DNA of 64,000 bases from an uncultured Brachyspira sp. (GTDB lineage: Bacteria; Spirochaetota; Brachyspiria; Brachyspirales; Brachyspiraceae). Positions 7,715-21,679 of the stretch are shown here, one piece after another; the stretch's first letter is position 1, and each line of letters begins with the position of its first letter. Under the pieces are notes generated by a model. That model was not told where the DNA came from. It did not search any database and was given only the letters and a program-made list of their open reading frames with translations. The stretch spans positions 1 to 64,000 of the forward strand of contig NZ_CALXKQ010000010.1 in the NCBI RefSeq assembly GCF_944388875.1. Reading direction: 5' to 3'. Position numbers and translations under genes: made by a program.

Positions 7715-8620
7715 ATGAAAGATTTTGATAAATTAAAACAAATACTGAATGAACCTGTTACAATAAATAATTTAAATAGAATTAATGATTATTTTGTACG
7801 CTATTTATTTTCGCATGAGGGCAATGAAAATATAGCTTTAAATTTCATTAATGCAGTATTTAAAGATTTAGACTTTGAAACTTTTAATAAAATAGAAATA
7901 CTTAATCCTTTTAATATATCAGAAAACTATGATGAAAAAGAATCAATAGTTGATATAAAAGCTACTACGGAAACAGGTATCACTGTTTTAATAGAAATAC
8001 AATCAAGAGGAAATGAAGATTTTATAAAAAGAGCTTTGTATTATTGGGCTTATAATTACAGTTCTAGTTTAAATAGAGGTTCTTTTTATGATGAATTAAA
8101 AGCTACTGTAAGTATTAATATTACAAATTTTATATTAACAGATGAAGATAAAGTACATAGCTGTTATATTTTAAAAGAATTAAACAATAATAAAATTCTA
8201 ACAGATCATTGTCAATTGCATTTCCTTGAACTTCCTAAATTCAATTTAAAAGATATTAATGAAATAGAAGATTTAGATAATATACATAAAGAATTCATTT
8301 CTTGGATAAAATTTTTTAAGGGGGAAAATATGTCTATCTTAATGAAAGAAAATACTATATTTGAAGAAGTAGAAAAAAAATGCCGTACATTTGTTAATGA
8401 CAGTCCAGTAATGGATAAGTATAAAAAACGAGAAGTAGATACTTATTTTTTTAATAAAAGTATGGAATTAGATTTAAAAAGATCTAGAGAAGAAGGTATT
8501 AAAGAAGGTATTAAGGAAAATCAAATATTAACGGCTAAAAATATGAAAAAAGAAAATATGGATATTAATATTATAAGCAAAATAACAGGATTAAGTATAG
8601 AAGAAATAAAAAAATTGTGA
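7715..8620 (+). CDS. Rpn family PD-(D/E)xK nuclease / transposase-like protein (copy 2)
   Basis: 301 residues, paralogue of the protein at 749. The nuclease core is intact: RINDYFVRYLF, Asp in IVDIK, Glu-x-Gln in IEIQ, and the ALYYWAYNYS helix. The catalytic domain differs from copy 1 at many positions, but the last 45 residues from GIKEGIKE onward are almost identical, suggesting gene conversion or selection on that end. The ATG at 7715 is used because an upstream TTG would lie in the -10 box. There is no Shine-Dalgarno before it. An internal ATG at 8330 has a strong one. Expected role: DNA nuclease with toxin or phage-defence activity, inferred from the family. Confidence 0.85.
   Translation: MKDFDKLKQILNEPVTINNLNRINDYFVRYLFSHEGNENIALNFINAVFKDLDFETFNKIEILNPFNISENYDEKESIVDIKATTETGITVLIEIQSRGNEDFIKRALYYWAYNYSSSLNRGSFYDELKATVSINITNFILTDEDKVHSCYILKELNNNKILTDHCQLHFLELPKFNLKDINEIEDLDNIHKEFISWIKFFKGENMSILMKENTIFEEVEKKCRTFVNDSPVMDKYKKREVDTYFFNKSMELDLKRSREEGIKEGIKENQILTAKNMKKENMDINIISKITGLSIEEIKKL
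8330..8620 (+). CDS. Candidate intragenic small protein (RpnS-like), copy 2
   Basis: An in-frame ATG at 8330 has AAGGGGG (8318-8324) five bases upstream. The product would be 96 residues (MSILMKENTIFEEV...), the Rpn C-terminal domain with two GIKE repeats. The start is at the same aligned position as ATG 1331 of copy 1 (MSEIVKEKPIMEEV), and both have the full-length start without a ribosome site. That two paralogues keep this layout while their surrounding sequence has diverged argues the internal start is used. Confidence 0.6.
   Translation: MSILMKENTIFEEVEKKCRTFVNDSPVMDKYKKREVDTYFFNKSMELDLKRSREEGIKEGIKENQILTAKNMKKENMDINIISKITGLSIEEIKKL
8495..8518 (+). repeat. 12-base coding repeats in rpn copy 2 (two units)
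   Basis: Two 12-base units encode GIKE-GIKE, preceded by a diverged SREE unit. Copy 1 has five units at the same place. Confidence 0.7.
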
Positions 8621-8709
8621 GTTCCTGATGGCAGAAGCCTATTAACGAACAAATTTTTTATAAACGATATAAGAAATAAAAAAATTCTAATTATATAGAA
8701 TAATCTTTT

Positions 8710-8750
8710 AATTGCATGCATATTTTTTATATGCATGCAATTTTTTATTG
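8710..8750 (+). terminator. Terminator between convergent rpn and mtnK
   Basis: A perfect 14-base stem (8710-8723 with 8729-8742; core TGCATGCA) has a five-T loop and a T-rich tail on the plus strand. It ends the island and separates it from the minus-strand operon. Confidence 0.8.
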
Positions 8751-8786
8751 TCAAAAATATTTTATATAAAATAGTAGTTTTAATAA

Positions 8787-10049
8787 TTACAGTTTATCAA
8801 TATTGGAATATCTATTTACAATCTCAGCAACTTTATCTATAGTATCAATACTTTCTCTATTTATCAAAAACTCTCTTCCTATGTTTAAACATATCCAATC
8901 AAGTCTAGCCCTCTCTTTTAAATCCTGAATGCCTGAAATATCTTTATTTTTTGCAAGCCCTAAAGTTCTTCTTATAAGCACACATCCTGCAAAACCTACA
9001 GAATCTTTGAATATTCTATTTAAAACAGTTTTAATATAATCCTCTGAATGTTTTTTTCCTTCTGGGTACTGCCAATATAAAGGGTTAGTTTCTTCTAAAT
9101 GTTTTTTCCATAGAGATTCAAATTTACTTAAAGTTCCTGTAAGCATATATTTAGCTGTATCAAAAAGCCATTTTCTATACTCTATAGAATTTGTACCTAA
9201 TCTTTTTTGATGATACTCATGCGAAATATAAGCCATAAAGAAATTAGCTATAGCCTTTCCAATATCAAACCCTATAGGACCGTAAAATGCAAACTCTGGG
9301 TCTATAATATATGTTTCTTCTTCATTACCCATAAAACTTCCCAAATGAAAATCTCCATGCAATAATGCTTCTGTCTTAGTCATAAATGCATATTTCATCT
9401 CTGCCGCTGCTGTTTTAAGTTTTGAATCTCTTTGAAATTTTTTAACTTCATCTATATTTAATTCATCATAAAATACATTAGTATCATTATCTTCAAAAGG
9501 ATGAGTAAAAATAAAATCTTCTGTTAAACTACATAGTTCAGCATTCATATATTCTATAACTAGAACTTTTTTAGATTTAGTATCCAAATAATAATCAGAA
9601 GTAAAAAATAAAGTATTAGATAGGAAATCTGTTAAATGTTCTGCAGCTTTAGGGAATTTTTTTCCTTCTATTATTTCTCCCCTTAAAACCTTATGATTAT
9701 TTAAATTCTGCATTATAACAAGGCACATATCATCAGAATCATAATATATCTTAGGAACAAGATTAGGACATAACCTGTATTGCTCCTTAAGGGTTTTTAT
9801 CTCTATTTTCATCCTGTCTTTTTCCAAAGGATAACTTTCTCCAACGCATCTTAAAAAGGGTACAGACTGTTTTAAAATTACAGTTTCTTTATCATTATTT
9901 TTATTTGTAATGCTGTATACAAAATTTAAATTACCATCTCCAATTTCAGTTATTATTAAGTCATCAAAGCTGGAGAATATATTTTTCATTTCATCTATGG
10001 TTTTTAAATAGTCTATTATAGTATCTATACTTAGTTGTTTATAAGCCAT
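8787..10049 (-). CDS. mtnK: S-methyl-5-thioribose kinase
   Basis: 420 residues, about family length. It phosphorylates 5-methylthioribose on C1 with ATP in methionine salvage. The aminoglycoside-phosphotransferase-like fold shows the Gly-rich GDGNLNFVY loop near residue 37, the catalytic LLHGDFHLGS segment near residue 232, and IDPEFAFYGPIGFDIG with the metal-binding Asp. It lies three bases after mtnA with a GGAG site in the gap, so the two are co-translated. Downstream salvage enzymes (MtnB, MtnC, MtnD) are not in the window. Because the operon also holds an ArsS-like protein, the kinase may act on a 5-modified ribose from that pathway; this is inference. Confidence 0.9.
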   Translation of the reverse strand: MAYKQLSIDTIIDYLKTIDEMKNIFSSFDDLIITEIGDGNLNFVYSITNKNNDKETVILKQSVPFLRCVGESYPLEKDRMKIEIKTLKEQYRLCPNLVPKIYYDSDDMCLVIMQNLNNHKVLRGEIIEGKKFPKAAEHLTDFLSNTLFFTSDYYLDTKSKKVLVIEYMNAELCSLTEDFIFTHPFEDNDTNVFYDELNIDEVKKFQRDSKLKTAAAEMKYAFMTKTEALLHGDFHLGSFMGNEEETYIIDPEFAFYGPIGFDIGKAIANFFMAYISHEYHQKRLGTNSIEYRKWLFDTAKYMLTGTLSKFESLWKKHLEETNPLYWQYPEGKKHSEDYIKTVLNRIFKDSVGFAGCVLIRRTLGLAKNKDISGIQDLKERARLDWICLNIGREFLINRESIDTIDKVAEIVNRYSNIDKL

Positions 10050-10052
10050 AAT

Positions 10053-11087
10053 TTAAAACTCCTTGAAAGCCTTTTTTAAATTTTCTATATACGGAGGTTT
10101 TATTATCCCTTTTTTTGTAATAAACCCTGTTATAAGCTCATTAGGCGTAACATCAAAAGCTGGATTTCTTACTTTAATATTCAATGGTGCCGTTTGTACC
10201 CCAGCAAAATTTATTACTTCTTTAGCATCTCTCTCTTCTATAACTATATCATGTCCAGTTTTTGTATTCAAATCAAAAGTAGTTGAAGGACATGCTATGT
10301 AAAAAGGTATATTAAAATATTTAGCTAAAATAGCGACTCCCATTGTACCTATCTTATTTGCAGCATCTCCATTTTCAGCAACTCTATCGCATCCTACTAT
10401 AACCAAATCTATAAGCCCTTTAGACATTATAAAAGCAGCCATATTATCACATATCAAAGTAACATCTATACCAGCCTCGCTTAATTCAAAACTAGTTAAT
10501 CTTGCACCTTGAAGCAATGGTCTTGTTTCATCAGCATATACTCTTATCTTCATACCTCTTTCATATGCTGTATACATAGGAGCAAGTGCCGTACCTATTC
10601 CGCTTACCGCCAATCTTCCAGCATTGCAATGTGTAAGTACTCCAAAATTATCTTTTAAAAGTTCAGCACCATTCTCGCCTATTTTCTGACATATATCTAT
10701 GTCTTCAGAGTGTATTTTCTTAGCCTCATCTTCAAGCATATTATATAATTCTAATGAAGTTTTATCTTTCTTATTATTTACAGCATTAAACATTCTATTT
10801 AAAGCATAACTTAAATTAACAGCTGTAGGTCTTGAAGAGTTCAAATATTTAGCCCTGCTCTCAAAATCGCTGGCAGATAAATCAGTCTTACTTTTTAAAT
10901 CTATAAGCATAGAATAGGCAGCAGCAACTCCTATAGCAGGAGCTCCCCTAACTTTCAATTCCTTTATAGCATTATAAGCATCTTCAATAGTTGATAACTT
11001 TACTTCTTTTACAGTTACAGGTATTAATGTTTGATCAAGTATATAAAGCTCATCTCCAGTCCATCTTACAGTAGGTATATTCGGCAT
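10053..11087 (-). CDS. mtnA: S-methyl-5-thioribose-1-phosphate isomerase
   Basis: 344 residues of the eIF2B-like/MtnA family. It isomerises methylthioribose-1-phosphate to methylthioribulose-1-phosphate. Typical segments include VRGAPAIGVAAAYSM (around residue 47), LTHCNAGRLAVSGIGTAL (catalytic Cys), ADETRPLLQGARLTSFEL and GCDRVAENGDAANKIGT (catalytic Asp). The start is ATG 11087, preceded by AGGAGGG at five bases; an in-frame start further upstream adds 19 residues atypical of the family and has no ribosome site. Second-last gene of the five-gene minus-strand operon. Confidence 0.92.
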   Translation of the reverse strand: MPNIPTVRWTGDELYILDQTLIPVTVKEVKLSTIEDAYNAIKELKVRGAPAIGVAAAYSMLIDLKSKTDLSASDFESRAKYLNSSRPTAVNLSYALNRMFNAVNNKKDKTSLELYNMLEDEAKKIHSEDIDICQKIGENGAELLKDNFGVLTHCNAGRLAVSGIGTALAPMYTAYERGMKIRVYADETRPLLQGARLTSFELSEAGIDVTLICDNMAAFIMSKGLIDLVIVGCDRVAENGDAANKIGTMGVAILAKYFNIPFYIACPSTTFDLNTKTGHDIVIEERDAKEVINFAGVQTAPLNIKVRNPAFDVTPNELITGFITKKGIIKPPYIENLKKAFKEF

Positions 11088-11150
11088 TGATACCCTCCTA
11101 ATTTTTACTAGAATAAGTATAATAAAATGACCGCTAAATTTCAATAGAAA

Positions 11151-12104
11151 CTACTGCAAATTTCCCTGACAGCTGCTTCCCTCTCCAGCAGTACATCCGT
11201 AACAATAATCTTCTATTACTATAGAATTGTCCCTAAAATCATCAATGGTTAAATCACCTATATATGAAGATTTATTATTTGCAGATATTAAATTTTTCAT
11301 TTGATTAAAGTCGCAATCGTACACTTTTCCGTCATAACCTATATTAATCGTATTTAAACACATAACTTTATAAGCATTTGATACATTAAAATTATCCTCA
11401 AGAAGCTGCATATATTGCTCATACTTATTATTCTTTTTAAGTTTCTCTTCAAATCTTCCTATAGGTATATTGGCAATAGTATATAAATTATTAAACACTA
11501 TGCCATGTTCATTTTTTAAATGCTCTTTATAATCCTTTTCTAATTCTGCTTGAGAAGCAGGCAGATAATCATCCAATGGATTATAAACCAAATTTATAAT
11601 TAAATCTTTATCAATGCCGTACCCTACAGAGTTTAAATATTTAAGCATTTTTATAGATTTCTCATAAGTTCCATTTCCTCTTTGTTCATCAACATTTTCT
11701 TTTGTATAGCAAGGAAGAGAAGCTACCAACTCTACCCTATTATTTTTAAAAATATCTATAAGTTCTTTTTTATTTTCTAATATGGTTAAATTAGTTCTTA
11801 ATATAATTCTATTAACATTTTTTAACTTTCTAACATCTTCTATGAATTTAGGTAATAAATCACAATTTTCAGGAGCACCTCCTGTTATATCAACATCTAT
11901 TTGTTTATTAGAATTTTTTATAAACTTTAAACAGTCATTCAATACTTCTCTGCTTATAGTTTCTTTTCTATTAGAACCAGCATCAACATGGCAATGAGCA
12001 CAATGTAAATTACAACTATAACCTGTGTTAATCTGCACAGTTTCTATTTCTTTTTTCTTCAATTCAATATCATATTTTTTTAAAGTTTCTGAAAAATGCA
12101 TCAT
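11151..12104 (-). CDS. arsS: ArsS-like radical SAM/Cys-rich protein
   Basis: 317 residues. The radical SAM cluster motif is CNLHCAHC near residue 32, followed by HVDAGSNRKE; DITGGAPE follows near residue 75. The C-terminal half has the Cys-rich domain with MCLNTINIGYDGKVYDCDFN and ends with CYGCTAGEGSSCQG, hallmarks of the rSAM/selenodomain family whose studied cyanobacterial members (ArsS) transfer the 5'-deoxyadenosyl group of SAM to dimethylarsinous acid in arsenosugar synthesis. Some relatives are selenoproteins; I see only Cys codons here. AAGGAGT precedes the ATG. No ArsM methyltransferase lies nearby, so the natural substrate is open. Its usual companions, two glycosyl/nucleotidyl transferases, are encoded on the plus arm at 18.7-20.1 kb. 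Confidence 0.85.
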   Translation of the reverse strand: MMHFSETLKKYDIELKKKEIETVQINTGYSCNLHCAHCHVDAGSNRKETISREVLNDCLKFIKNSNKQIDVDITGGAPENCDLLPKFIEDVRKLKNVNRIILRTNLTILENKKELIDIFKNNRVELVASLPCYTKENVDEQRGNGTYEKSIKMLKYLNSVGYGIDKDLIINLVYNPLDDYLPASQAELEKDYKEHLKNEHGIVFNNLYTIANIPIGRFEEKLKKNNKYEQYMQLLEDNFNVSNAYKVMCLNTINIGYDGKVYDCDFNQMKNLISANNKSSYIGDLTIDDFRDNSIVIEDYCYGCTAGEGSSCQGNLQ

Positions 12105-12123
12105 TTATATACTCCTTAATTTT

Positions 12124-13056
12124 TTATAGTATTTGAAAACCTTTTATTACAGCTTTTTCTATACCATATTCAGTTCCATTGATTATTCTATCTCTGTATG
12201 ATACAGATGCTTCGCTTCCTAAAGGCCATAAATTATCAAACCATTTTAAAAATCTATCGTTATTGTACCTAACTGGAACAGCCTCTGCATACAAATTATT
12301 AATTCTATCTCTGTAAACAGCATTCTCATTTACAGAATTTGATATTCTAGTTATTAAGCCATAAAGCTTTCCCTTAAAATTCGGCATGCCTGCAGCACCA
12401 TTATTTATAACAATTCCATTTTTAAGTTTAGCTGCAGCAGGAAAGCATGTATGTGTAGATGCCAAAATATCTATATCATTTTCTATAAACCAATTATCAA
12501 GCTCATTCTGTCTTTCATATCTTTCTAAAGATTCATTAGAACATTCCCATCCGCTTAATGACTTTTCATCACCATGTGTTATAGCTATTTTCTGCCCCAT
12601 CATTTCCAATGTAATATTTTTCTTTCTGCCAGATAATATATTTTTATATTTAGTCAAAATATCCATAACTTTCTTCAATTCTTTATGTATAATATTGGAT
12701 CTATTAACTATATCATCAGATACATAGCTTGGATATGAACATCCGCACCCATTATAATCTCCTTCTCTAAAAAGCTCTTTTTCAACATTTCCTAAAAGCT
12801 TTTGAGAATTTTCAGACATATCCTCTATCTTTTTAAAATCATCTGCACTCTTGTCAAACCAATGCATATCTCCATTAAATATAAGCAAAATATCTTTATC
12901 TTTTTCATTTTCAATCATCTTATTTATTTCTTTTAAAGACTCAATATTTCCGTATAATCCTCCAACTATATACAATGTCGAATTATTTATGTTTATTACT
13001 TTTTTAAATGAATCTTTATCCAATGCATAATCAGACGGACATGTTTCTGCTCTCAT
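12124..13056 (-). CDS. Calcineurin-like metallophosphoesterase of the ArsS operon
   Basis: 310 residues. Metallophosphoesterase landmarks are FNGDMHWFD (GD motif), ITHGDEKSLSGW and ASTHTCFPAA, with INNGAAGMPNF near the end. The first motif, normally DxHG, reads YIVGGLYGN, lacking the usual Asp-His pair, so metal binding may be altered. It overlaps the symporter gene by four bases (ATGA) and is followed 20 bases on by arsS, so co-translation is likely. Expected role: removing phosphate from an intermediate of the ArsS-linked pathway; the substrate is unknown. Confidence 0.75.
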   Translation of the reverse strand: MRAETCPSDYALDKDSFKKVININNSTLYIVGGLYGNIESLKEINKMIENEKDKDILLIFNGDMHWFDKSADDFKKIEDMSENSQKLLGNVEKELFREGDYNGCGCSYPSYVSDDIVNRSNIIHKELKKVMDILTKYKNILSGRKKNITLEMMGQKIAITHGDEKSLSGWECSNESLERYERQNELDNWFIENDIDILASTHTCFPAAAKLKNGIVINNGAAGMPNFKGKLYGLITRISNSVNENAVYRDRINNLYAEAVPVRYNNDRFLKWFDNLWPLGSEASVSYRDRIINGTEYGIEKAVIKGFQIL

Positions 13057-14429
13057 ACTTTATCCTTTTTCATTATTATGCTTGGTATAATATAAGCCAA
13101 GAAACATAATATGCTTCCATATAAATTAACACCTAATAATAAAGCACTTTTACCATCGCCTATACTAAATATTTTTGGAATAACACCTATAGTATAAGCT
13201 ATTCCTAAAAAAATACCTATCCAAAAACTCAAATGAAATCCTATCTTAGTAGGCTTAAAAATACCATGAAGTAAAAATATAGGAGAAAGTCCTATTACCA
13301 TAGTGCCGCTTATTGTTGTTGCTGCCAGTATATTAGTTCCTGCTATCATTGGCAAATTTCCTACTACAGCAAACAAAACCATAACAAGCATACCTATTAT
13401 TCTTGCTTTATTTCCTAAATCTATGCCTTTTATATGAGGTAAATCTTGAGCAGCCAATTTAGATAAACTTGAAAATGTAGAATCCAAAGTTGAACCAGCA
13501 GCAAATATCATTAATACTGCCATTAAAAGGAACGCAAATACAGACATATTTTTAGCTACATCAGCTGGAACGTTTCCGCTTAAAACTATATTTTCCAATT
13601 TTGCATGTATTCCTATAAAGCTAAATATGAGTATAACAATAAAACCCAATATGCCTGATACTATAAACGCTTTAAGCATTTCTTTCTCTTCGGATATAAA
13701 TCCTCTATCAGTTAATACAGGATCATGAAAAGGGTAACTAAAAATTTGTATAAAAGTTACAAGAATTAAATCAACTCCTCCTGACAAAGTCCAAGTTCCT
13801 GATGAAGCATATTCATTTAAGGAATGTTTAGGTATTATCCACACCGCAATAAAAATAAATATTATAACAAATAGTACAGTTTGTATTGCATCTGTAATAA
13901 TAGAACTTAATAAGCCTCCCTTCATAGAATATATTAATGTTATTATAGTAAATATTGAGGCTGCTATTATAAAATTAATACTTCCGCTTGCTCCATAATA
14001 CCCCCCTATAACAGAAGAGTTGCTCCAAATTTCATTGAATAATCTTATAAGTATTGCAGCAGAAAATGATAAAGCAGCGGCATTTCCATAATTATCTTTT
14101 AAAAAGCTGACAAGTCCTTTAGCGTTATACTTTTTTCTTAATCTGTATATAACTATTCCAGATATAGGTATGCATAACCAATATAATGCATAAGCGATCC
14201 CTCCTACAATTCCATAATCTGCCCCTAAATTAGCTGCATTTGTAACTGATTTTGCAAATATCCAACTTATAAAAATACTTGATGTTAATATAAAAGTAGA
14301 AGGTTTATTTCCATATTTATCTTCACCGTTAAAAAAACTTTTAATTGTCAAGGCTTTCGGAGATAAAAATGTCATTGTAATTCCATATAGAGATAAAAAT
14401 CCCCAAAAAAATATAGATGTAAATTCCAT
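13053..14429 (-). CDS. Sodium:solute symporter family transporter
   Basis: 458 residues with about 12-13 predicted membrane helices, inner membrane. The SSS-family pattern is recognisable: a long N-terminal helix, the SISWIFAKSVTNAANLGADYGIVGG region, SSVIGGYYGASGS, the YPFHDPVLTDRGF loop, and FAAGSTLDSTFSSLSKLAAQDL, resembling the Na2-site helix of PutP/SGLT relatives. Substrate is not predictable. It is the first gene of the operon ending in mtnK and shares an ATGA overlap with the phosphoesterase, suggesting import or export of a metabolite used by the ArsS pathway. Confidence 0.8.
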   Translation of the reverse strand: MEFTSIFFWGFLSLYGITMTFLSPKALTIKSFFNGEDKYGNKPSTFILTSSIFISWIFAKSVTNAANLGADYGIVGGIAYALYWLCIPISGIVIYRLRKKYNAKGLVSFLKDNYGNAAALSFSAAILIRLFNEIWSNSSVIGGYYGASGSINFIIAASIFTIITLIYSMKGGLLSSIITDAIQTVLFVIIFIFIAVWIIPKHSLNEYASSGTWTLSGGVDLILVTFIQIFSYPFHDPVLTDRGFISEEKEMLKAFIVSGILGFIVILIFSFIGIHAKLENIVLSGNVPADVAKNMSVFAFLLMAVLMIFAAGSTLDSTFSSLSKLAAQDLPHIKGIDLGNKARIIGMLVMVLFAVVGNLPMIAGTNILAATTISGTMVIGLSPIFLLHGIFKPTKIGFHLSFWIGIFLGIAYTIGVIPKIFSIGDGKSALLLGVNLYGSILCFLAYIIPSIIMKKDKV

Positions 14430-14447
14430 AAAATATTTACCCCATTT

Positions 14448-14473
14448 AAGCCCGCATAAATCTGTGCGGGCTT
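14448..14473 (-). other. GC-rich hairpin in the leader of the symporter-ArsS-Mtn operon
   Basis: A perfect nine-base stem, AAGCCCGCA (14448-14456) with TGCGGGCTT (14465-14473), has an eight-base loop and stands out in AT-rich DNA. On the minus strand it lies a few bases before the GGGG ribosome site of the symporter gene and has no T tail, so it is not a clear terminator for that strand; a T run follows on the plus strand. It could be a translational control hairpin or the distal terminator of the rhodanese gene. Confidence 0.5.
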
Positions 14474-14596
14474 TTATAAATAATGAATTATTTTTTATTA
14501 AAACTATAGATTCACGATCTAATTAAATTGAAAAAATGAGAGGGATTTTATTCTTATAGTAAATAAAAAAATGAAAGTTCATAAATTTAATTTTTA

Positions 14597-15025
14597 TTAC
14601 TCAGCCAATGCTTTAGAAAACTCATCATATCCTGCATTATTGAGGTTATTAACATTAGTAAAACCTAAATCAGCCATTATTTGAGAAGCCTGTCCTGAAC
14701 GGTTACCTGTTCTGCAGAATACTATATACTCTTTACTTTTATCTAAAGCAGATACATTGTCTTTAAAATCAGCTGCTTTAAAATCTATATTAGTAGCACC
14801 TTCTATAGTACCTGTTTCTTTAATTTCATCTGGTGTTCTTACATCTATTAATATGATGTTAGTATTTGATTTCCATAATGTTATAACTTCATCAACAGTT
14901 AAGTTCTTATAACTTGCTGCAGTATTAGTCTGCTGCTGAGAAGATGAAGAAGATGATGATGAATTACTGCAGCTTATTATCAATGATAATAAAACTACAA
15001 AAGAGATTATAATATTTTTTTTCAT
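14597..15025 (-). CDS. Rhodanese-domain lipoprotein
   Basis: 142 residues. The lipoprotein signal (SLIISC, Cys near residue 19) is followed by a Ser/Gln linker and one rhodanese domain. IILIDVRTPDEI marks the substrate-side loop and CRTGNRSG the active-site loop with the catalytic Cys. Rhodaneses carry persulfide sulfur; lipid-anchored, it would act outside the cytoplasm. AGGAG precedes the ATG. It lies between the two arms of the ArsS-type locus and is transcribed with the minus arm's orientation. E. coli has a comparable grouping of rhodanese YnjE with YdjX, YdjY and YdjZ, families also present here. Confidence 0.9.
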   Translation of the reverse strand: MKKNIIISFVVLLSLIISCSNSSSSSSSSQQQTNTAASYKNLTVDEVITLWKSNTNIILIDVRTPDEIKETGTIEGATNIDFKAADFKDNVSALDKSKEYIVFCRTGNRSGQASQIMADLGFTNVNNLNNAGYDEFSKALAE

Positions 15026-15056
15026 AGTAAAATTCTCCTAATTAGAAATTTAGTTT

Positions 15057-15084
15057 ATAATAACATACAAAGAATTATAGTCAA
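15057..15084 (-). promoter_or_regulatory. Promoter of rhodanese lipoprotein
   Basis: On the minus strand TTGACT (15084-15079), 16 bases, extended TGT-TATTAT (-10 at 15062-15057). Start point expected about 25 bases before the ATG. Confidence 0.65.
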
Positions 15085-15404
15085 TAAAAAATTATATAAA
15101 TACTTTTAAATTATTGTTTTTTTAATTTAAAATATAAAACCTCATTATAAAAATAATTTTTTATAGAATGTATAGCTTTTATCATATATTTTACTTGATA
15201 TTTTTATTCTTTTTGTTATTATTAGCAATAGAGTAATTTTTTTGGAAGGATTATGTTTAATAAATATTCTATTAACAATTTACTTATATTTTTTAATAAT
15301 TACAAATTTCCTCTTAAATAAAATCATATAGTCCGTGAGACTTATTTCATAAATATATAATTATAAAATCTAAATTATTTTATAAAATCGGGAGTTTATC
15401 TATT
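15085..15404. other. AT-rich divergent intergenic region
   Basis: About 320 bases between the rhodanese promoter and the plus arm. I see no gene, RNA or clear repeat. A GGGAG ribosome site (about 15390) precedes the ATG at 15405; possible -10 boxes are present but no convincing -35. Confidence 0.5.
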
Positions 15405-16154
15405 ATGAATGAATCTGGCACTTTTAATAAAAAATCAATAATAAAAAAAATTATTCTATTACTAATAATTGTACTATGTGTGTTATCTTATTTTTTTGTA
15501 CCTGCAGTAAATAAACAGCTCAATAATATATTTAAAATGTTTGCTACTGGAGATTTTAATGTTGTAAAAGAATTCGTGGCATCTTACGGACATTATGCTA
15601 TGGCTGTTTCATTTATACTTATGGTTCTTCAATCTGTAGTAGCCCCTTTGCCTGCATTCTTACTTACATTTGCAAATGCTAATCTATTCGGATGGAAAGC
15701 GGGAGCATTATTATCTTGGTCTAGTGCTATGGCTGGTGCTGCTGTATGTTTTTATATTGCTAGAATACTTGGAAGAGATTTTGTTGAAAAACTAACAAGT
15801 AAAACAGGATTAAAACAAATAGATGATTTTTTTGAGAAATATGGAAAACAAAGCGTGCTTATAGCAAGACTTCTTCCTTTTATTTCTTTTGATATAGTGA
15901 GCTATGCTGCTGGATTAACATCTATGAATTTTTTAAGTTTCTTTATAGCAACTGGAATAGGTCAGCTTCCTGCTACTATAGTTTATTCTTATGTAGGAGG
16001 AATGCTTACAGGAGGAGCCAAATTATTTGTTACAGGACTTTTAATATTATTTGCCTTATCTGCATTGATAATTTTATTAAGACAAATATATAAAAATAGA
16101 AAAGATAAAACAAAATCGGTTAATAACACAGAAAACAATGAAAGTACAAACTAA
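15405..16154 (+). CDS. TVP38/TMEM64 (VTT/DedA-like) membrane protein 1
   Basis: 249 residues with about six membrane helices. The VTT core is visible: VVAPLPAFLLTFANANLFGWKAG, AGAAVCFYIARILGRDF, and ARLLPFISFDIVSYAAGLTSMNF, with the Gly/Pro-rich re-entrant loops of the family. Such proteins are membrane scramblase or transporter-like factors of unclear substrate. E. coli YdjX and YdjZ belong here and flank ydjY; this locus likewise has two VTT genes followed by YdjY-like genes. The next gene overlaps the last 17 bases, so translation is probably coupled. Confidence 0.85.
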   Translation: MNESGTFNKKSIIKKIILLLIIVLCVLSYFFVPAVNKQLNNIFKMFATGDFNVVKEFVASYGHYAMAVSFILMVLQSVVAPLPAFLLTFANANLFGWKAGALLSWSSAMAGAAVCFYIARILGRDFVEKLTSKTGLKQIDDFFEKYGKQSVLIARLLPFISFDIVSYAAGLTSMNFLSFFIATGIGQLPATIVYSYVGGMLTGGAKLFVTGLLILFALSALIILLRQIYKNRKDKTKSVNNTENNESTN

Positions 16155-16815
16155 ATATATTAAATTAATAATATTTATAATAGCCATCATTGCTGTTATT
16201 ATCATTAATCATCATTACAAACTGCATGATAAAATTCATAATCTTGATGATTTCAAATATATGATAGGTGATAATATAGTTAAAGCATCAATAATATATA
16301 TTGTTATAACAGCTATTGGAAGTTCTATACTGGCACTTCCTGGTGTTACTTTTGCTTTATTTTCAGGTATATTATTCGGACCTATACTTGGAATAATATT
16401 ATGCTCTGTATCTTCTACATTGGCTGCTATAATTTCTTTTTTGGTATCAAGATTTTTCCTAAAAGATACTATAAAGCCTCTCATAGAAAAAAATAAATGC
16501 TTAAATAAGCTATTGTTCCAAGATGGAAATAAAAATGCAATGCTTCTTTTAATGATTACAAGATTGGTTCCTCTATTTCCATACAATATACAGAACTTTG
16601 CTTATGGTATAACAGATGTTAGTTTTATGCAGTATTCTTTATATACATTTTTGTTTATGCTTCCTGGAATATCTTTATTTACTATAGCATCTGTAGGAAT
16701 AGTCGCTGAAAATAATAGATCTTTATATTTTTTGATTGCTGCTGTTATATTGGTATTTGTATTAGTTATATCTTTTTTATTAAAGAAAAAATATGTTAAT
16801 AATAAATCGGTTTAA
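16138..16815 (+). CDS. TVP38/TMEM64 (VTT/DedA-like) membrane protein 2
   Basis: 225 residues, a second VTT protein and distant paralogue of the preceding one. Motifs: GSSILALPGVTFALFSGILFGP, a C-terminal TRLVPLFPYNIQNFAYGIT segment, then two helices and a Lys-rich tail. ATG 16138 lies inside the end of the upstream gene with no strong ribosome site, consistent with translational coupling. Pairs of VTT proteins are typical of the rSAM/ArsS and ydjXYZ-type neighbourhoods. Function unproven. Confidence 0.85.
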   Translation: MKVQTKYIKLIIFIIAIIAVIIINHHYKLHDKIHNLDDFKYMIGDNIVKASIIYIVITAIGSSILALPGVTFALFSGILFGPILGIILCSVSSTLAAIISFLVSRFFLKDTIKPLIEKNKCLNKLLFQDGNKNAMLLLMITRLVPLFPYNIQNFAYGITDVSFMQYSLYTFLFMLPGISLFTIASVGIVAENNRSLYFLIAAVILVFVLVISFLLKKKYVNNKSV

Positions 16816-16863
16816 GATTATATTTTATGGGGTTATATAAGATTATATTTTATGGGGTTATAT
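16814..16863 (+). repeat. Exact 25-base tandem duplication before the YdjY-like gene
   Basis: Two identical 25-base copies (16814-16838 and 16839-16863) abut the ATG at 16864. Each carries a TATGGGG block that can serve as ribosome site, so the duplication doubles it and lengthens the gap from the VTT gene. Confidence 0.9.
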
Positions 16864-17514
16864 ATGATAAAAAAAATTATTTTATTTTTGTTATTTATAT
16901 TGTCAATATCATGCAGTAATGAACTAAAAAATTCTATGGGAAGTGTAATTTTAAGGGATGAAGGAGCTGTGCCTGCTGTTATAGATAATGATAAGAAAGA
17001 AGTTATAATAGAAGCTGTAGTAAACGGCAAATATTTTAATACGCCTTCAAGACATCATGGCATAGTATTCAAAGGCGGAAAATATGGAGAGATGGGTGTA
17101 TTAATATCGCTTACAGATGAAAGAGAATTTTATCAGGCTTTAAAAGATATAGGACGTGTTGAAGGAAATAATTTAACTATGGAAGATATGATATTATCAA
17201 AAGCGGTTAAAGGAGAACCTTTGGATATATTTGTTACTTGGGATGGCTTAGGAAAAGAAATACCTTTTGAAGATATAATAAAATCATCTGAAAATAGAAT
17301 GATGATAGTTAGATTCGGAGGCAATTTTGAGGCTGCTAAATCCAATAGAACAGGATGTATATTATGTCTTGACAGTTGTGCTATGGCTATAACGAGTGAT
17401 GCCGCTTATGAGGCTGGTGCTGTTGAAATCAAAAAAATAGGCAGATATGGAAGAGAAGATGTACTGCCTGCTGACGGAACTAGAGTTTCTGTTATATTTA
17501 GAATAGCTGAATAA
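16864..17514 (+). CDS. YdjY-like lipoprotein 1
   Basis: 216 residues: signal peptide ending SISC (Cys near residue 17), then one domain resembling E. coli YdjY. Shared features are a beta-rich start, RHHGIVFKGG, EFYQALKDIG, DIFVTWDGLGKEIPFEDII, and the highly conserved RFGGNFEAAKSNRTGCILCLDSC segment, with three Cys in a CxxC-x3-C arrangement that could bind metal or heme, or react with thiols. The start is ATG 16864 with GGGG six bases upstream. A close paralogue follows. Position between VTT genes and the transferases suggests an envelope role in the same process. Confidence 0.7.
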   Translation: MIKKIILFLLFILSISCSNELKNSMGSVILRDEGAVPAVIDNDKKEVIIEAVVNGKYFNTPSRHHGIVFKGGKYGEMGVLISLTDEREFYQALKDIGRVEGNNLTMEDMILSKAVKGEPLDIFVTWDGLGKEIPFEDIIKSSENRMMIVRFGGNFEAAKSNRTGCILCLDSCAMAITSDAAYEAGAVEIKKIGRYGREDVLPADGTRVSVIFRIAE

Positions 17515-17522
17515 TAAACTAA

Positions 17523-17560
17523 GAATTGCTAGTATATGAATTTCATGTATGCAATTTTTA
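17523..17560 (+). terminator. Hairpin between the two YdjY-like genes
   Basis: AATTGC...ATGAA pairs with TTCAT...GCAATT, followed by five T. May act as a partial terminator within the plus arm. Confidence 0.45.
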
Positions 17561-17590
17561 TAAATAACTGTAAATAAAAAGGAGAAAAGT

Positions 17591-18292
17591 ATGAACAAAA
17601 AATTTATTTTAACTTTATTTGTATGTTTATTATTTGTATCATTAATGGTATCATGTAATAAACAATCTTCTTCATCATCTGCTGCCTCCAATACAGAATT
17701 AACTAATTCTATGGGCAGTGTAATATTAAGAGATGAAGGAGCTGAGCCTGTTATAATAGACATAGAAAAAAAAGAGGTTATAGTCCCTGCAGAAGTAAAT
17801 GGCAAATATTTTAATTCACCAACAAGACATGGAGTTGTATTTGACAGAGGTTCTAATGGGGATAAATCTGTATTAAGAGGATTAGCTGATGAGAGAGAAT
17901 TTTATCAGGCATTAATAGATATAGGAGCAGTACCTGGAAATAATTTGACTATGGAAGATATGAAATTAGAAAAAACTGTTGATGGTCAAAAACTTGATGT
18001 ATTTGTTACTTGGGACGGATTAGGAAAAGAAATACCTTTTGCTGATATAATAAGATCAGATGATGAAAGACCTATGGACATAAGATTCGGAGGTAACTTA
18101 GAAAATGCTAAAGATAAAAGAACAGGATGCATACTATGTCTTGACAGCTGTGCGGTAGGTATAACAAGCGATGCTGCTTATGAAACTGGTGCTGTTGAAA
18201 TTAAAAAAATAGGCAGATATGGAAGAGAAGATGTACTTCCTGCTGACGGAACTAGAGTTTCTGTTATATTTAGAATAGCTACAAACAATTAA
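17591..18292 (+). CDS. YdjY-like lipoprotein 2
   Basis: 233 residues, paralogue of the previous gene over the whole mature domain. The signal peptide ends LMVSC, followed by a Ser/Ala linker. Conserved parts are SMGSVILRDEGA, TRHGVVFDRG, FVTWDGLGKEIPF and RFGGNLENAKDKRTGC with the same Cys cluster (GCILCLDSC). A GGAG site precedes the ATG. The last 30 residues (IGRYGREDVLPADGTRVSVI) are identical to copy 1, showing recent duplication or conversion. Confidence 0.7.
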   Translation: MNKKFILTLFVCLLFVSLMVSCNKQSSSSSAASNTELTNSMGSVILRDEGAEPVIIDIEKKEVIVPAEVNGKYFNSPTRHGVVFDRGSNGDKSVLRGLADEREFYQALIDIGAVPGNNLTMEDMKLEKTVDGQKLDVFVTWDGLGKEIPFADIIRSDDERPMDIRFGGNLENAKDKRTGCILCLDSCAVGITSDAAYETGAVEIKKIGRYGREDVLPADGTRVSVIFRIATNN

Positions 18293-18313
18293 TAAAAATA
18301 AAAGGATTGATAA

Positions 18314-18715
18314 GTGAAATATTTTGCTGTACTATATAATACTTTTTTATGGGCTATGATCATTGCTTTTATGATGTTCAAAAATGTATGGCTTGAAATG
18401 CGTGTTAATATAGGACTATGTTTTTTTATAATATGGGCTTTACTATTTGTTATATTCGTTTTTATAAATAATAAAAAAAATATTTTCAAAAGATATACAA
18501 TATTTTCGCTTATCAATCTAATTTTATGCTTTGTAATTGCCTTAATAATATTATCTCCATCTGCTATGGCATATACTCCGTCTTCAATTATAAGAGATGG
18601 TATATACGCTTTAAGAAAATTTAAATTGAATACAATAAATATTGCTATATCCGTATTCATAACAGCAAGCATACTAATTATGCTCATTCCATCACTAATA
18701 AAGAAAAGAGCATAA
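18314..18715 (+). CDS. Small four-helix membrane protein
   Basis: 133 residues with four hydrophobic segments and a Lys-Lys-Arg end; family not recognised. GTG 18314 is the start, supported by AAAGGA seven bases upstream. It ends three bases before the next ATG, so it belongs to the plus-arm operon. An inner-membrane partner of the VTT/YdjY-like proteins is possible, but nothing in the sequence tells its role. Confidence 0.65.
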   Translation: MKYFAVLYNTFLWAMIIAFMMFKNVWLEMRVNIGLCFFIIWALLFVIFVFINNKKNIFKRYTIFSLINLILCFVIALIILSPSAMAYTPSSIIRDGIYALRKFKLNTINIAISVFITASILIMLIPSLIKKRA

Positions 18716-18718
18716 TAT

Positions 18719-19384
18719 ATGAAATCCAATGCTTTAATAATATTCACAAGAATACCAATAGCAGGTAAAACCAAAACTAGATTACAAACAAAATTATCAC
18801 CTGAAGAATGTGCAAGTATACATAAATGCTTTTTAAAAGATATATATAAAAAAATGAAAGAACTAAAGCATGATGATATTGATATAATAATATCTTATAA
18901 TCCTGAAGGGGATTTAAATATATTAAAAGAAATATTTTATGATGAAAATAAATATATAAAGCAGAAAATAAACAGCAATAATGAAAATGAAAAAATATAC
19001 AATTCTATGAAGGAAGTATTTGATTTAGGATATAAAAAATGTATTCTAATAGGAACTGATATACCAGAAATAAGCAAAGAGAATATAATTGATTCTTTTA
19101 ATTTATTAGATGATAATGATTTTGTATTCGGTCCTAGCTATGACGGAGGATATTATTTAGTTGGAATGAATAAGTATAATGATGTAATAGTTAATACTAA
19201 TAGCGGAAATCTTAAAAATATTTTAAGTGCTGTAGAAAATATTAATTTGAAATACTCTGCTATAGAAAATAGATACGATATTGATGAGTATAATGATTTG
19301 ATTGAATTAAATAATAGAATAAATAATAATAATATAATACTTGAGAATACAAAGAATTTTTTAAATAGCATAAATTTAGATTAG
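18719..19384 (+). CDS. rSAM/selenodomain-associated transferase 1 (arsenosugar-type, TIGR04282-like)
   Basis: 221 residues with a nucleotidyltransferase/GT-A fold related to CofC and MobA. The N-terminal loop FTRIPIAGKTKTRL matches the family pattern (K-x-P-x-x-G-x-x-K-T-R-L); LIGTDIPEIS carries the metal-binding Asp, and GPSYDGGYYLVGM the product loop. Families of this kind co-occur with the ArsS-like radical SAM protein and with the transferase encoded next. The reaction is predicted, not shown. It starts directly after the small membrane protein and is followed 11 bases on by the second transferase. Confidence 0.85.
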   Translation: MKSNALIIFTRIPIAGKTKTRLQTKLSPEECASIHKCFLKDIYKKMKELKHDDIDIIISYNPEGDLNILKEIFYDENKYIKQKINSNNENEKIYNSMKEVFDLGYKKCILIGTDIPEISKENIIDSFNLLDDNDFVFGPSYDGGYYLVGMNKYNDVIVNTNSGNLKNILSAVENINLKYSAIENRYDIDEYNDLIELNNRINNNNIILENTKNFLNSINLD

Positions 19385-19395
19385 GATTTTTAAAT

Positions 19396-20076
19396 TTGTC
19401 TGTTTCTATAATTATACCAATATTGAATGAAGAAAATGTAATAGAAAGATTAATAAAAAATTTGAATGAATTAGAAGGAGAATTTGAGGTAATATTCTCC
19501 GACGGAGGAAGCAAAGACAAAACGCTTGATATAATAAAAAATACCTGCAATTACAAGATAGTGTATTCTGATAAAGGCAGGGCTAAACAATTAAATACTG
19601 GGGCTAAAGAAAGTAAATATGATATACTTTTATTTCTGCATGCTGACAGTATTATAGAAAAAGGCGTATTAATAAAGATAGAAAATTTTATAAAAAATAA
19701 TAAAAAAGCAGGATGCTTAAAAATAAAATTTGACAGCAAAAAAATATTAATGCGTATATGCGGATTTTTATCTAATGTAAGAGCGGCACTAAGACATATA
19801 GCATTTGGGGATCAGGGAATATTTATAGAAAAAAAACTATTTTTTGATATAGGAATGTTTGATGATATGCCTCTTATGGAAGATTATAAATTATCCATAA
19901 AACTGAAAGATGTATGCCCTATTAATGCTGTTGATTCATATATAATTTCTTCTGCAAGACGTTTTGAAAAAAACGGAATTATAAAAACTATGATTTATAT
20001 GCAGAAACTTCAGTATATGTTTAGAAATGGCGAGGATATAGAAAAAATAGCAAATATATATAATAATATGAAATAA
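19396..20076 (+). CDS. rSAM/selenodomain-associated transferase 2 (arsenosugar-type GT2, TIGR04283-like)
   Basis: 226 residues, family 2 glycosyltransferase. SIIIPILNEENVIERLI opens the GT-A domain; FSDGGSKDKT binds the sugar nucleotide; the SDKGRAKQLNTGA segment is typical of this subfamily; LLFLHADS holds the DxD-like site; FGDQGIFIEKKLF and MPLMEDYKLS complete the acceptor side. Start is TTG 19396 with AGGA upstream, as no ATG is in place. Paired with transferase 1, it marks this as the companion arm of the ArsS gene on the other strand. Confidence 0.85.
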   Translation: MSVSIIIPILNEENVIERLIKNLNELEGEFEVIFSDGGSKDKTLDIIKNTCNYKIVYSDKGRAKQLNTGAKESKYDILLFLHADSIIEKGVLIKIENFIKNNKKAGCLKIKFDSKKILMRICGFLSNVRAALRHIAFGDQGIFIEKKLFFDIGMFDDMPLMEDYKLSIKLKDVCPINAVDSYIISSARRFEKNGIIKTMIYMQKLQYMFRNGEDIEKIANIYNNMK

Positions 20077-20085
20077 GGACTTTTT

Positions 20086-21093
20086 ATGAAAATGCCTGAT
20101 AATGTAGAGGATTGTATACATTGCAATAGATGTGTAAAAAAATGCAGTTTTTTAACTAAATACAATATGGATTTGCATGAATTTTCAAAGCACGAAGATT
20201 TAGCTTATAATTGTTTTTTATGCAATGACTGCAAGATTGTTTGTCCTAAAGATATAGACGGACATAAAATATCTTTATCTTTAAGAAGCAGCAAAGTTGA
20301 GTCTGACATAAAAAACAGAAAAGAAATTGAAGAAAAATATAAATTTCTGCTGTTTGAAAAAAAAGATTATATTTTTAAGAATTATAATAACATAATTAGC
20401 GAATCTGTAATATTCCCAGGATGCAATTTTTCATCATTTTATCCTGATGCATTAAAAAATATATTATATAAATTTAAAAATGAATATAATATCGGTGCTG
20501 TATTTGACTGCTGCGGAAAACCTATAGCTGAATTAGGCATAGAGGATTATGAAAATGAAATAATAAAAAAATTAGAAAATAGTATGATATCTAATGGAAT
20601 AAAAGAAATAATAACTTTATGTCCTAATTGCTACTATTTCTTAAAACCAAGAATCAATATTAAAATTATCACTATATATGAAAAAATGTATGAATTGGGT
20701 TTGAAATTTAAATTAAATAATGATGATGAACAAATAAATCTTTTTATACCTTGTCCTGATAAAGAATCAAAACATATAAAAAATGCTATATTAAAAATTA
20801 TAGATTTAGATGAGAATAATATCAAAGAAGTAAAAGATGTTAATTGCTGCGGACTTGGGGGATGTGCCATTGTTAATGAGAAAGAATTGGCAGAAGGCTT
20901 TATAGATAAATTAAAAAATAAAAACTTAGAAAATCTATATGTTTACTGTGCTACATGTGCTGGTAATTTTAATAGAAACAATATAAATAATATTCATCAT
21001 ATTTTGGTTGATATTCTTAATATGGACAGTTTAAAAATAAAGAATAAAACTTCTTTATTAAGCAGAGCTATGTTTAAGTTTTTTAAACTATAA
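20086..21093 (+). CDS. Fe-S/CCG-domain oxidoreductase (heterodisulfide reductase-like)
   Basis: 335 residues. Two [4Fe-4S] ferredoxin motifs sit at the N-terminus (CIHCNRCVKKC and CFLCNDCKIVC), then two CCG domains: FPGCNF, DCCGKP and CPNCYYF in the first, NCCGLGGC and CATCAGNF in the second. This is the arrangement of HdrB/GlpC/LutA-type electron-transfer subunits acting on disulfides or quinones. AAGGA precedes the ATG; nine bases separate it from transferase 2, so it closes the plus arm. It could supply reducing power or process a thiol/arsenic or selenium intermediate, which is inference. Its 3' end overlaps the convergent STAS gene by 11 bases. Confidence 0.85.
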   Translation: MKMPDNVEDCIHCNRCVKKCSFLTKYNMDLHEFSKHEDLAYNCFLCNDCKIVCPKDIDGHKISLSLRSSKVESDIKNRKEIEEKYKFLLFEKKDYIFKNYNNIISESVIFPGCNFSSFYPDALKNILYKFKNEYNIGAVFDCCGKPIAELGIEDYENEIIKKLENSMISNGIKEIITLCPNCYYFLKPRINIKIITIYEKMYELGLKFKLNNDDEQINLFIPCPDKESKHIKNAILKIIDLDENNIKEVKDVNCCGLGGCAIVNEKELAEGFIDKLKNKNLENLYVYCATCAGNFNRNNINNIHHILVDILNMDSLKIKNKTSLLSRAMFKFFKL

Positions 21094-21406
21094 AATCTTT
21101 AGGGTCATCAAAATATTTTATTAAACTGAATATCATAAGACTTTTTAATATAGGTGAAACAGATTCATGCAAATTAGTCATAAAGAGCTTAACTTTTAAC
21201 GATTGCAGATTTTTATATAATTTAAGCATTTTAGCAATTCCAGCACTGTTTATTTCTCTTACATTTTTCATATCAAGAACGACTACAGGCATTCTGATAT
21301 TGCATGCTTCTTCAGAATCTTCAAGAAATTTACTTATTTCCTCAGGAGAACTCAAATTAGCTTCCATAACGATGGATACGTATTCATTAAAAAACTCTAT
21401 AGCCAA
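21083..21406 (-). CDS. STAS-domain protein (anti-anti-sigma factor-like)
   Basis: 107 residues, a single STAS domain. VVVLDMKNVREINSAGIAKMLKLY matches the SpoIIAA phosphorylation helix, with Ser in NSAG at the phospho-acceptor position. Such proteins take part in partner-switching with anti-sigma kinases or serve as scaffold subunits. No kinase or phosphatase partner is adjacent. The gene lies convergent to the Fe-S gene and downstream of tRNA-Tyr. Confidence 0.8.
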   Translation of the reverse strand: MAIEFFNEYVSIVMEANLSSPEEISKFLEDSEEACNIRMPVVVLDMKNVREINSAGIAKMLKLYKNLQSLKVKLFMTNLHESVSPILKSLMIFSLIKYFDDPKDFIV

Positions 21407-21447
21407 AATACAATCCTTTATTAAAAAAGATGGCGTAAAAAAGAATG

Positions 21448-21530
21448 TGGGCAGGGAGGGATTCGCACCCCCGTAGACTCACGTCGGCAGATTTACAGTC
21501 TGCTGCCATTGACTGCTCGGCCACCTACCC
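21448..21530 (-). tRNA. tRNA-Tyr (GTA)
   Basis: An 83-base class II tRNA. The 5' GGGTAGG pairs with 3' CCTGCCC (one G-T pair), the anticodon loop CTGTAAA holds GTA, there is a long variable arm, and the T arm contains GTGCGAATCC. Discriminator base is A; the CCA end is not encoded. Confidence 0.95.
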
Positions 21531-21554
21531 ATATTAATTTGAAAACGTAAAAGC

Positions 21555-21583
21555 ATAATACCATATTATATATAAAATGTCAA
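21555..21583 (-). promoter_or_regulatory. Promoter of tRNA-Tyr
   Basis: On the minus strand TTGACA (21583-21578), 17 bases, TATTAT (21560-21555), about 18 bases before the mature 5' end. Confidence 0.75.
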
Positions 21584-21679
21584 TAGACAACTTCGATTTT
21601 TTAAAACATATTTTTATATCTTTTTATTCAATAATGATGTATAATAAAAGATAGTTTATAATTTTTAGGTGATAGTAAT

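Follow-up and report, generated by a model that had tools for sequence, protein, structure and literature searches.

The closest described counterpart of the locus analyzed here is the ArsM-ArsS pathway of oxo-arsenosugar biosynthesis (TIGR04167, TIGR04282, TIGR04283, and NF038099), in which, according to excerpts of PMC12159101, the radical S-adenosylmethionine (SAM) enzyme ArsS adenosylates arsenic. Parts of the locus also resemble the dihydroxyacetone phosphate (DHAP) shunt of Escherichia coli, where, as excerpts of PMC10986504 describe, MtnN/Pfs, MtnK, MtnA, and Ald2 break 5′-methylthioadenosine (MTA) down to DHAP plus an aldehyde and the route ends in 2-methylthioethanol; the ydjXYZ-ynjABCDE cluster of E. 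coli K-12; and leader-peptide attenuators of the erm/bmrCD type. The locus lies at positions 8787-21093 of a 64,000-nucleotide stretch (the window; G000:C10:1-64000, GC content 0.20-0.32) of an uncultured Brachyspira genome, G000, assembled as 3.11 Mb in 48 contigs. Two points are new here: mtnA and mtnK stand beside arsS, and the two arms of the locus share a leader. Both were overlooked by the initial annotation of this DNA, and they change the likely destination of the pathway. We propose, at somewhat less than an even chance, that the ArsS-type module is one two-armed regulon under paralogous leader-peptide attenuators, and that it feeds a product made from an external substrate into a methylthioribose-type salvage route. 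A literature search, with subscription journals largely outside its coverage, returned no publication on the ArsS locus or the leader among its top-ranked matches.

The minus arm carries, in order, genes for a rhodanese-domain lipoprotein, an SSF symporter, a metallophosphoesterase-like protein, arsS, mtnA, and mtnK; the plus arm (15405-21093) carries two VTT proteins, two YdjY-domain proteins, a small membrane protein, TIGR04282, TIGR04283, and a CCG/4Fe-4S protein. Profile searches agree with the two divergent arms and the gene list given by the initial annotation, the phosphoesterase being a weak match, except that mtnA and mtnK had been passed over within its own coordinates. As in the ArsM-ArsS pathway, ArsS and both transferases score over their cut-offs (matches are quoted as score/curated cut-off in bits): arsS (11151-12104, minus strand; radical SAM and DUF3641) at 399/300 with TIGR04167, the CofC-like transferase (18719-19384, plus strand) at 142.8/134 with TIGR04282, and the family-2 glycosyltransferase (19396-20076, plus strand) at 249.5/182 with TIGR04283. 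ArsS keeps the near-invariant cysteines C31, C35, and C38 of the radical SAM CxxxCxxC motif and C249, C264, C301, C304, and C312 of DUF3641. The pathway described elsewhere differs in having a phosphorylase where this locus has mtnA, encoding S-methyl-5-thioribose-1-phosphate isomerase (10053-11087, minus strand; NF004326 444.7/271, TIGR00512 430.6/279), and mtnK, encoding S-methyl-5-thioribose kinase (8787-10049, minus strand; TIGR01767 501.2/275), the best solved relative of which is a methylthioribose kinase; we call this copy type A. The listed mtnA open reading frame (ORF) extends to 11144, and alignment of congeners places its ATG start at 11087.

Before the first gene of both arms lies a leader of about 20 codons that ends in K-I/F-P-L, and behind it a hairpin whose loop reads CGTGA. 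The leader was found by aligning the spacer between the rhodanese gene and the next gene and likewise the spacer ahead of vtt1, and it is in sense orientation in both. Leader 1 (14507-14582, minus strand) consists of ORF 1, MNFHFFIYYKNKIPLIFSI (14523-14582), and the hairpin TAGAT-CGTGA-ATCTA (14507-14521); leader 2 (15253-15342, plus strand) consists of ORF 2, MFNKYSINNLLIFFNNYKFPLK (15253-15321), and the hairpin AGTC-CGTGA-GACT (15330-15342). Two sites in the 64 kb fit the pattern CCTCT-N6-30-AGNNCGTGANNCT, against an average of 0.00 over 100 shuffles; because the pattern was drawn from the same sites, the shuffles speak for its rarity only. A looser search placed the leader before vtt1 of G001 and also before the mtnAK operon of that genome, a congener without arsS, which gives mtnAK a regulatory tie to the module. 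In G001 this leader-headed operon (L192:5486-12211) encodes a CDP-alcohol transferase, a binding protein, MtnA, MtnK, an ABC ATPase, and a permease. Altogether, 18 leader copies were collected from nine congeners, eight in arm 1, nine before vtt1, and the one before the G001 mtnAK operon; the loop reads CGTGC in G008, G010, and G016, where the right arm is split off.

Each of the 18 copies contains an ORF with an ATG in the same register, ending near K-I-P-L, K-F-P-L, or A-F-P-H. The first ATG of leader 1 in G002 would give a 36-aa frame extending out of the rhodanese gene, and the aligned ATG gives 16 aa. Codon differences in the reading frame were synonymous in 35 of 79 cases for arm 2 and 47 of 146 for arm 1, compared with 2/79, 4/73, 2/127, and 16/122 in the other frames, all counted without the two G001 copies. 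Across the 18 copies, 91.1% of stem cells were paired, against 25.6-44.4% in slid controls; three of the five pairs covary through double changes, and the outermost one does not form in 8 of the 18. A model, R1, built from all 18 copies scored the two window leaders at 69.6 (leader 2) and 66.7 bits (leader 1), the next hit being 16.5, and over 98 family loci it recovered 16 of its seeds, each with at least 55 bits, followed by 26.1. In 82 loci from other spirochaetes and other phyla R1 found no leader, the best score being 21.5 bits, nor did any copy rise above background in 40 evenly spaced stretches of G010, a single-contig genome with ArsS (0.8 of 3.24 Mb; best 20.3 bits). Among the loci searched, the leader is so far confined to this genus. 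An Rfam search of positions 8000-22000 returned only a tRNA at gathering score, and its best sub-threshold matches were unrelated.

The K-F-P codons of leader ORF 2 are able to pair with the vtt1 ribosome-binding site, as they can in all eight arm 2 copies outside G001, with 0-10 of 77-121 control segments pairing equally well; we read arm 2 as a putative translational attenuator. Start-site pairing in arm 1 was not above controls in most copies (1-69 of 119-225 controls were as good in seven copies). A GC-rich hairpin between leader 1 and ssf (14448-14473, minus strand), identified from sequence and fold, is a possible expression platform; it showed no sequence conservation and was set aside as a conserved element. 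A short constrained ORF, a hairpin, and, in one arm, possible start-site pairing are features in common with attenuators of the erm/bmrCD type as the excerpted literature presents them, from which this leader departs in its C-terminal K-I/F-P-L motif and its restriction, so far, to one genus. The leader shared by the two arms is a ready reporter, and its inducer would name the signal of the pathway.

ArsM had been noted as missing from the window, and the absence extends to the whole genome. For comparison we used the 26 genomes of the genus and the 29 of the family, G000 being counted in both. With NF038099, G000 gave no match at E ≤ 0.001, and none of the 29 family genomes exceeded the cut-off; NF008823, likewise over cut-off in 0 of 29, reached at best 28.9 bits in G000, across a stop codon, and 25.9 bits in G010, although it detected the ArsM-type neighbors of other ArsS genes in four of four cases at 118-206 bits. 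The full-genome search that the initial annotation had proposed as a check thus did not give its refuting outcome, an arsM elsewhere in G000, and the puzzle of where the substrate comes from stands. The AhpD/peroxidase-like partner TIGR04169 was also over cut-off in none of the 29 genomes, reaching 20.5 bits against a cut-off of 120 in G000. Beyond the family, ArsS was found in 42 of 392 Spirochaetota genomes, and an ArsM-like match at E ≤ 1e-20 accompanied it in 20 of the 42, none of them among the seven ArsS genomes of the genus and all 20 among the 35 outside it. ArsS without ArsM is thus not unique to G000: 22 of the 42 genomes lack an ArsM-like match at this threshold, so that substrate exchange between microbes, or another substrate, has to be considered. 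ArsS chemistry is in this way separated from self-made methylarsenic. In three spirochaete genomes (G180, G141, and G140; loci L275, L276, and L277) ArsS and ArsM form one open frame of 679-706 aa. Such fusions strengthen the normal link between ArsM and ArsS and make the absence of ArsM here more telling.

One explanation for this absence, which we consider unlikely, is that ArsS of this genus acts on another soft nucleophile (a sulfur, selenium, or phosphorus species), with the rhodanese and YdjY proteins part of that chemistry, so that no ArsM would be needed. The genome-wide lack of both ArsM and TIGR04169 is consistent with it, as are the long separate branch formed by the ArsS proteins of the genus and a cluster in E. 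coli K-12 that runs VTT-YdjY-VTT-AhpD-ABC-rhodanese, is neighbored by a CDP-alcohol transferase gene, and lists no ArsS. Against it, the iron-sulfur cysteines and most near-invariant residues are kept, and TIGR04283, a family named for arsenosugars, is present in all seven ArsS genomes. Of 73 near-invariant positions, ArsS of the genus differs at 6, where the median over 65 clades is 1; this divergence was rejected as proof of another substrate and is neutral on the question, since the ArsS-ArsM fusions depart at 7-13 positions. An explanation through selenium by way of SelD was also dropped: SelD passes its cut-off in 28 of the 29 family genomes, with or without ArsS, and does not track it, so that a selenium substrate, one option raised by the initial annotation, is neither favored nor disfavored by the SelD distribution.

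The ArsS congeners are G000, G002, G008, G010, G016, G017, and G020. In five of these seven (G000, G008, G010, G016, and G017), arsS, mtnA, and mtnK are contiguous and codirectional, and in the mtnAK tree the ArsS-linked copies are spread over three branches. Type A mtnK was associated with ArsS at Fisher P = 0.023 over the 29 genomes and 0.058 within the genus, and with the right arm at P = 0.003, values that take no account of relatedness. These observations have to be set against a housekeeping interpretation, in which mtnA and mtnK perform ordinary salvage and the ArsS module, whether by chance or through its history, came to lie between a STAS gene and the mtnA promoter, with no metabolites shared; we give this a chance slightly below that of our own proposal. 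It accounts for the direct joining of STAS, mtnA, and mtnK in seven congeners without ArsS, and the G000 module sits exactly between STAS and the mtnA promoter. That promoter (TTGAAA-17 nt-TATACT; 11116-11144, minus strand, between arsS and mtnA), identified by scan and alignment, was conserved in 11 of the 12 congeners aligned, whether they bear ArsS or not, which is evidence against dependence of mtnAK on the arsS transcript and weakens a simple arsS-mtnA-mtnK operon. Less easily explained by housekeeping alone are the adjacency, which five of the seven ArsS genomes keep across three contexts and three branches of the tree, and the module leader at the head of the mtnAK operon in G001.

Several observations weigh against the two-armed regulon with a salvage outlet that we propose. 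Besides the conserved mtnA promoter and the STAS-mtnA-mtnK arrangement, both speaking against a dedicated arsS-mtnAK operon, type A mtnK also occurs in 10 of the 22 family genomes without ArsS. The mtnAK genes of G002 and G020 lie elsewhere than arsS, inside an ABC sugar-transporter operon, and no leader was found at those loci. Among 80 ArsS loci of other phyla, mtnA or mtnK was near ArsS in only one, about 9 kb off. Neither ArsM nor TIGR04169 is present in the G000 genome, and the locus holds no gene shown to be arsenic-specific outside the ArsS-type set.

Under the proposed regulon, ArsS would transfer the 5′-deoxyadenosyl group from SAM to a soft nucleophile. The likeliest acceptor is trivalent dimethylarsenic, which, as the genome is without ArsM, would come from other gut microbes. 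The resulting 5′-deoxy-5′-substituted adenosine could then be converted to a 5-substituted ribose-1-phosphate by MtnN (163.6 bits in G000) and MtnK. Phosphorylases convert a 5′-substituted adenosine directly to a 5-substituted ribose-1-phosphate. It can therefore be argued by analogy that MtnN and MtnK would reach, in two steps, the same compound as the phosphorylases beside ArsS elsewhere. Part of this compound might pass to TIGR04282 and TIGR04283 to become a glycoside, and part perhaps through MtnA and an aldolase in the style of the DHAP shunt, with the VTT, YdjY, and rhodanese proteins presumably acting at the envelope. Like the DHAP shunt and the salvage of MTA and 5′-deoxyadenosine, G000 has the nucleosidase MtnN, the kinase MtnK, the isomerase MtnA, and one class II aldolase. 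This sole class II aldolase (PF00596) is encoded on contig C34 (L310:2577-3242) beside genes resembling those for ribosomal and single-strand-binding proteins and away from sugar catabolism genes; unlike that of the shunt it is unclustered, and it matches fuculose-phosphate aldolase (215.7 bits) better than 6btd (123.2 bits), an entry we take to be DrdA, the aldolase of the 5-deoxyribose pathway.

To our knowledge, the enzymes that form dimethylarsinoylethanol have not been assigned. With dimethylarsinoyl replacing methylthio, the chemistry of the DHAP shunt would end at this compound, which excerpts of PMC3739928 describe, together with related compounds, as an exclusive metabolite of arsenosugars. 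The fullest form of the proposal is a new leader-peptide sensor family, with an arsenical or a 5-substituted ribose as ligand, over an anaerobic pathway leading from the ArsS product through MtnN, MtnK, MtnA, and aldolase to DHAP and dimethylarsinoyl-acetaldehyde and then to dimethylarsinoylethanol; we think it quite unlikely that all of this holds. Were the salvage link true, it would supply candidate genes for the formation of dimethylarsinoylethanol in the anaerobic gut. The genome paper on Brachyspira hyodysenteriae reports, in its excerpted text, mtnK, mtnA-type, and mtnN genes and considers an alternative anaerobic pathway probable (PMC2650404); the term "arsen" is absent from that text.

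Nearness of mtnK and mtnA to arsS might also arise if they merely dispose of 5′-deoxyadenosine or 5-deoxyribose left by radical SAM enzymes, which we hold to be very improbable. Excerpts of PMC10986504 have MtnK and MtnA acting on 5-deoxyribose in the DHAP shunt, and a kinase-isomerase-aldolase set does likewise in excerpts of PMC6079011. However, ArsS probably incorporates the adenosyl group into its product, which should leave little 5′-deoxyadenosine, and G000 has a second kinase/isomerase pair elsewhere: a divergent mtnK with an isomerase-like neighbor (G000:C15:36664-37821; L293), found in nearly all congeners.

Of the 29 family genomes, 7 pass the TIGR04167 cut-off and 9 that of TIGR04283, the latter being all seven with ArsS plus G001 and G013, or 2 of the 22 without it (Fisher P = 2e-5, again ignoring relatedness). 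Two relevant contigs of G013 end just past the rhodanese gene and just ahead of mtnA, so arsS may lie in the gap. The initial annotation had suggested that the pathway starts with methylarsenic imported by the symporter, the first gene of its operon. This position holds in G000, but ssf and the phosphoesterase gene are found at the locus in only two of the seven ArsS congeners (G000 and G002), and in the other five arsS comes immediately after the rhodanese gene. Symporter import can therefore be no general answer and is at best a local one.

Outside the spirochaetes, a callable ArsS ORF was present in 74 of the 80 loci, and neighbor types were named from scanned representatives rather than from each member. 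Within five genes of ArsS, the TIGR04169 cluster occurred in 44 of the 74 loci (at position -1 in 43), TIGR04282/TIGR04283 in 42, a nucleoside phosphorylase family in 20 (the two members scanned were of MTAP and PNP type), an ArsM-type cluster in 16 (18 within six genes), and rhodanese in 8. YdjY and CCG genes, which the window locus has, were near ArsS in none of the 80, a further difference from the ArsM-ArsS pathway. SSF was near ArsS in 3 of 80 loci: relatives 42-45% identical occur in L065, L068, and L086. These three flavobacterial loci also encode, at -1 of ArsS, a metallophosphoesterase-TIGR04169 fusion (L065:8608-9813, L068:8535-9770, and L086:8406-9653; the domain scan was made of L065), and an invariant CGC motif is common to the fused phosphoesterases and the window protein. 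Together with the spirochaete G338, which has ssf and the phosphoesterase gene near ArsS, they indicate that symporter and phosphoesterase are genuine but optional partners of ArsS.

The window symporter (13053-14429, minus strand) matches PF00474 at 23.1/22.8 bits. The metallophosphoesterase-like protein (12124-13056, minus strand) scores 20.7 bits with PF00149, just under the cut-off of 21.5, and was recognized by alignment to ArsS-linked relatives. The usual first metal motif of phosphoesterases is GDxHG. The window protein has the degenerate GGLYGN in its place, together with the conserved CGC, which raises the possibility that it is no ordinary phosphatase; its predicted structure is poor (mean pLDDT 55.8). 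The rhodanese-domain lipoprotein (14597-15025, minus strand) matches PF00581 at 55.6 bits, and in G008 a second rhodanese gene lies downstream of mtnK (L121:12597-12989). In the plus arm, the VTT/DedA-type membrane proteins (vtt1, 15405-16154, and the second, 16138-16815) match PF09335 at 94.7 and 64.1 bits, the YdjY-domain lipoproteins (16852-17514 and 17591-18292) match NF040466 at 118.8/50 and 149.2/50, the small membrane protein (18314-18715) is a module member with homologs in congener right arms, and the last gene (20086-21093; PF02754, 45.8/20.6) encodes the 4Fe-4S and CCG protein, which is heterodisulfide-reductase-like.

Two VTT/DedA proteins, YdjY, and rhodanese are likewise combined in E. 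coli K-12 ydjXYZ-ynjABCDE, where ynjF, beside the cluster, encodes a CDP-alcohol transferase, the same annotated domain as in the leader-headed operon of G001. The E. coli cluster differs in having the AhpD-like YnjA and in listing neither ArsS nor TIGR04282/TIGR04283; the excerpted literature on YdjY and YnjE reports expression data only. A scan of the whole region for sigma-70 promoters and terminators gave 97 hits against a shuffle mean of 96 and 4 against 4, and for this reason only the alignment-supported mtnA promoter was used. Two stretches of the window had no matches among public plasmids and phages. The plus arm is flanked on the minus strand by the gene for the STAS protein (21083-21406; PF01740, 37.4/22.6), whose adjoining of mtnA in congeners without ArsS was read from synteny, and by a tRNA-Tyr (21447-21530) identified by RNA family search.

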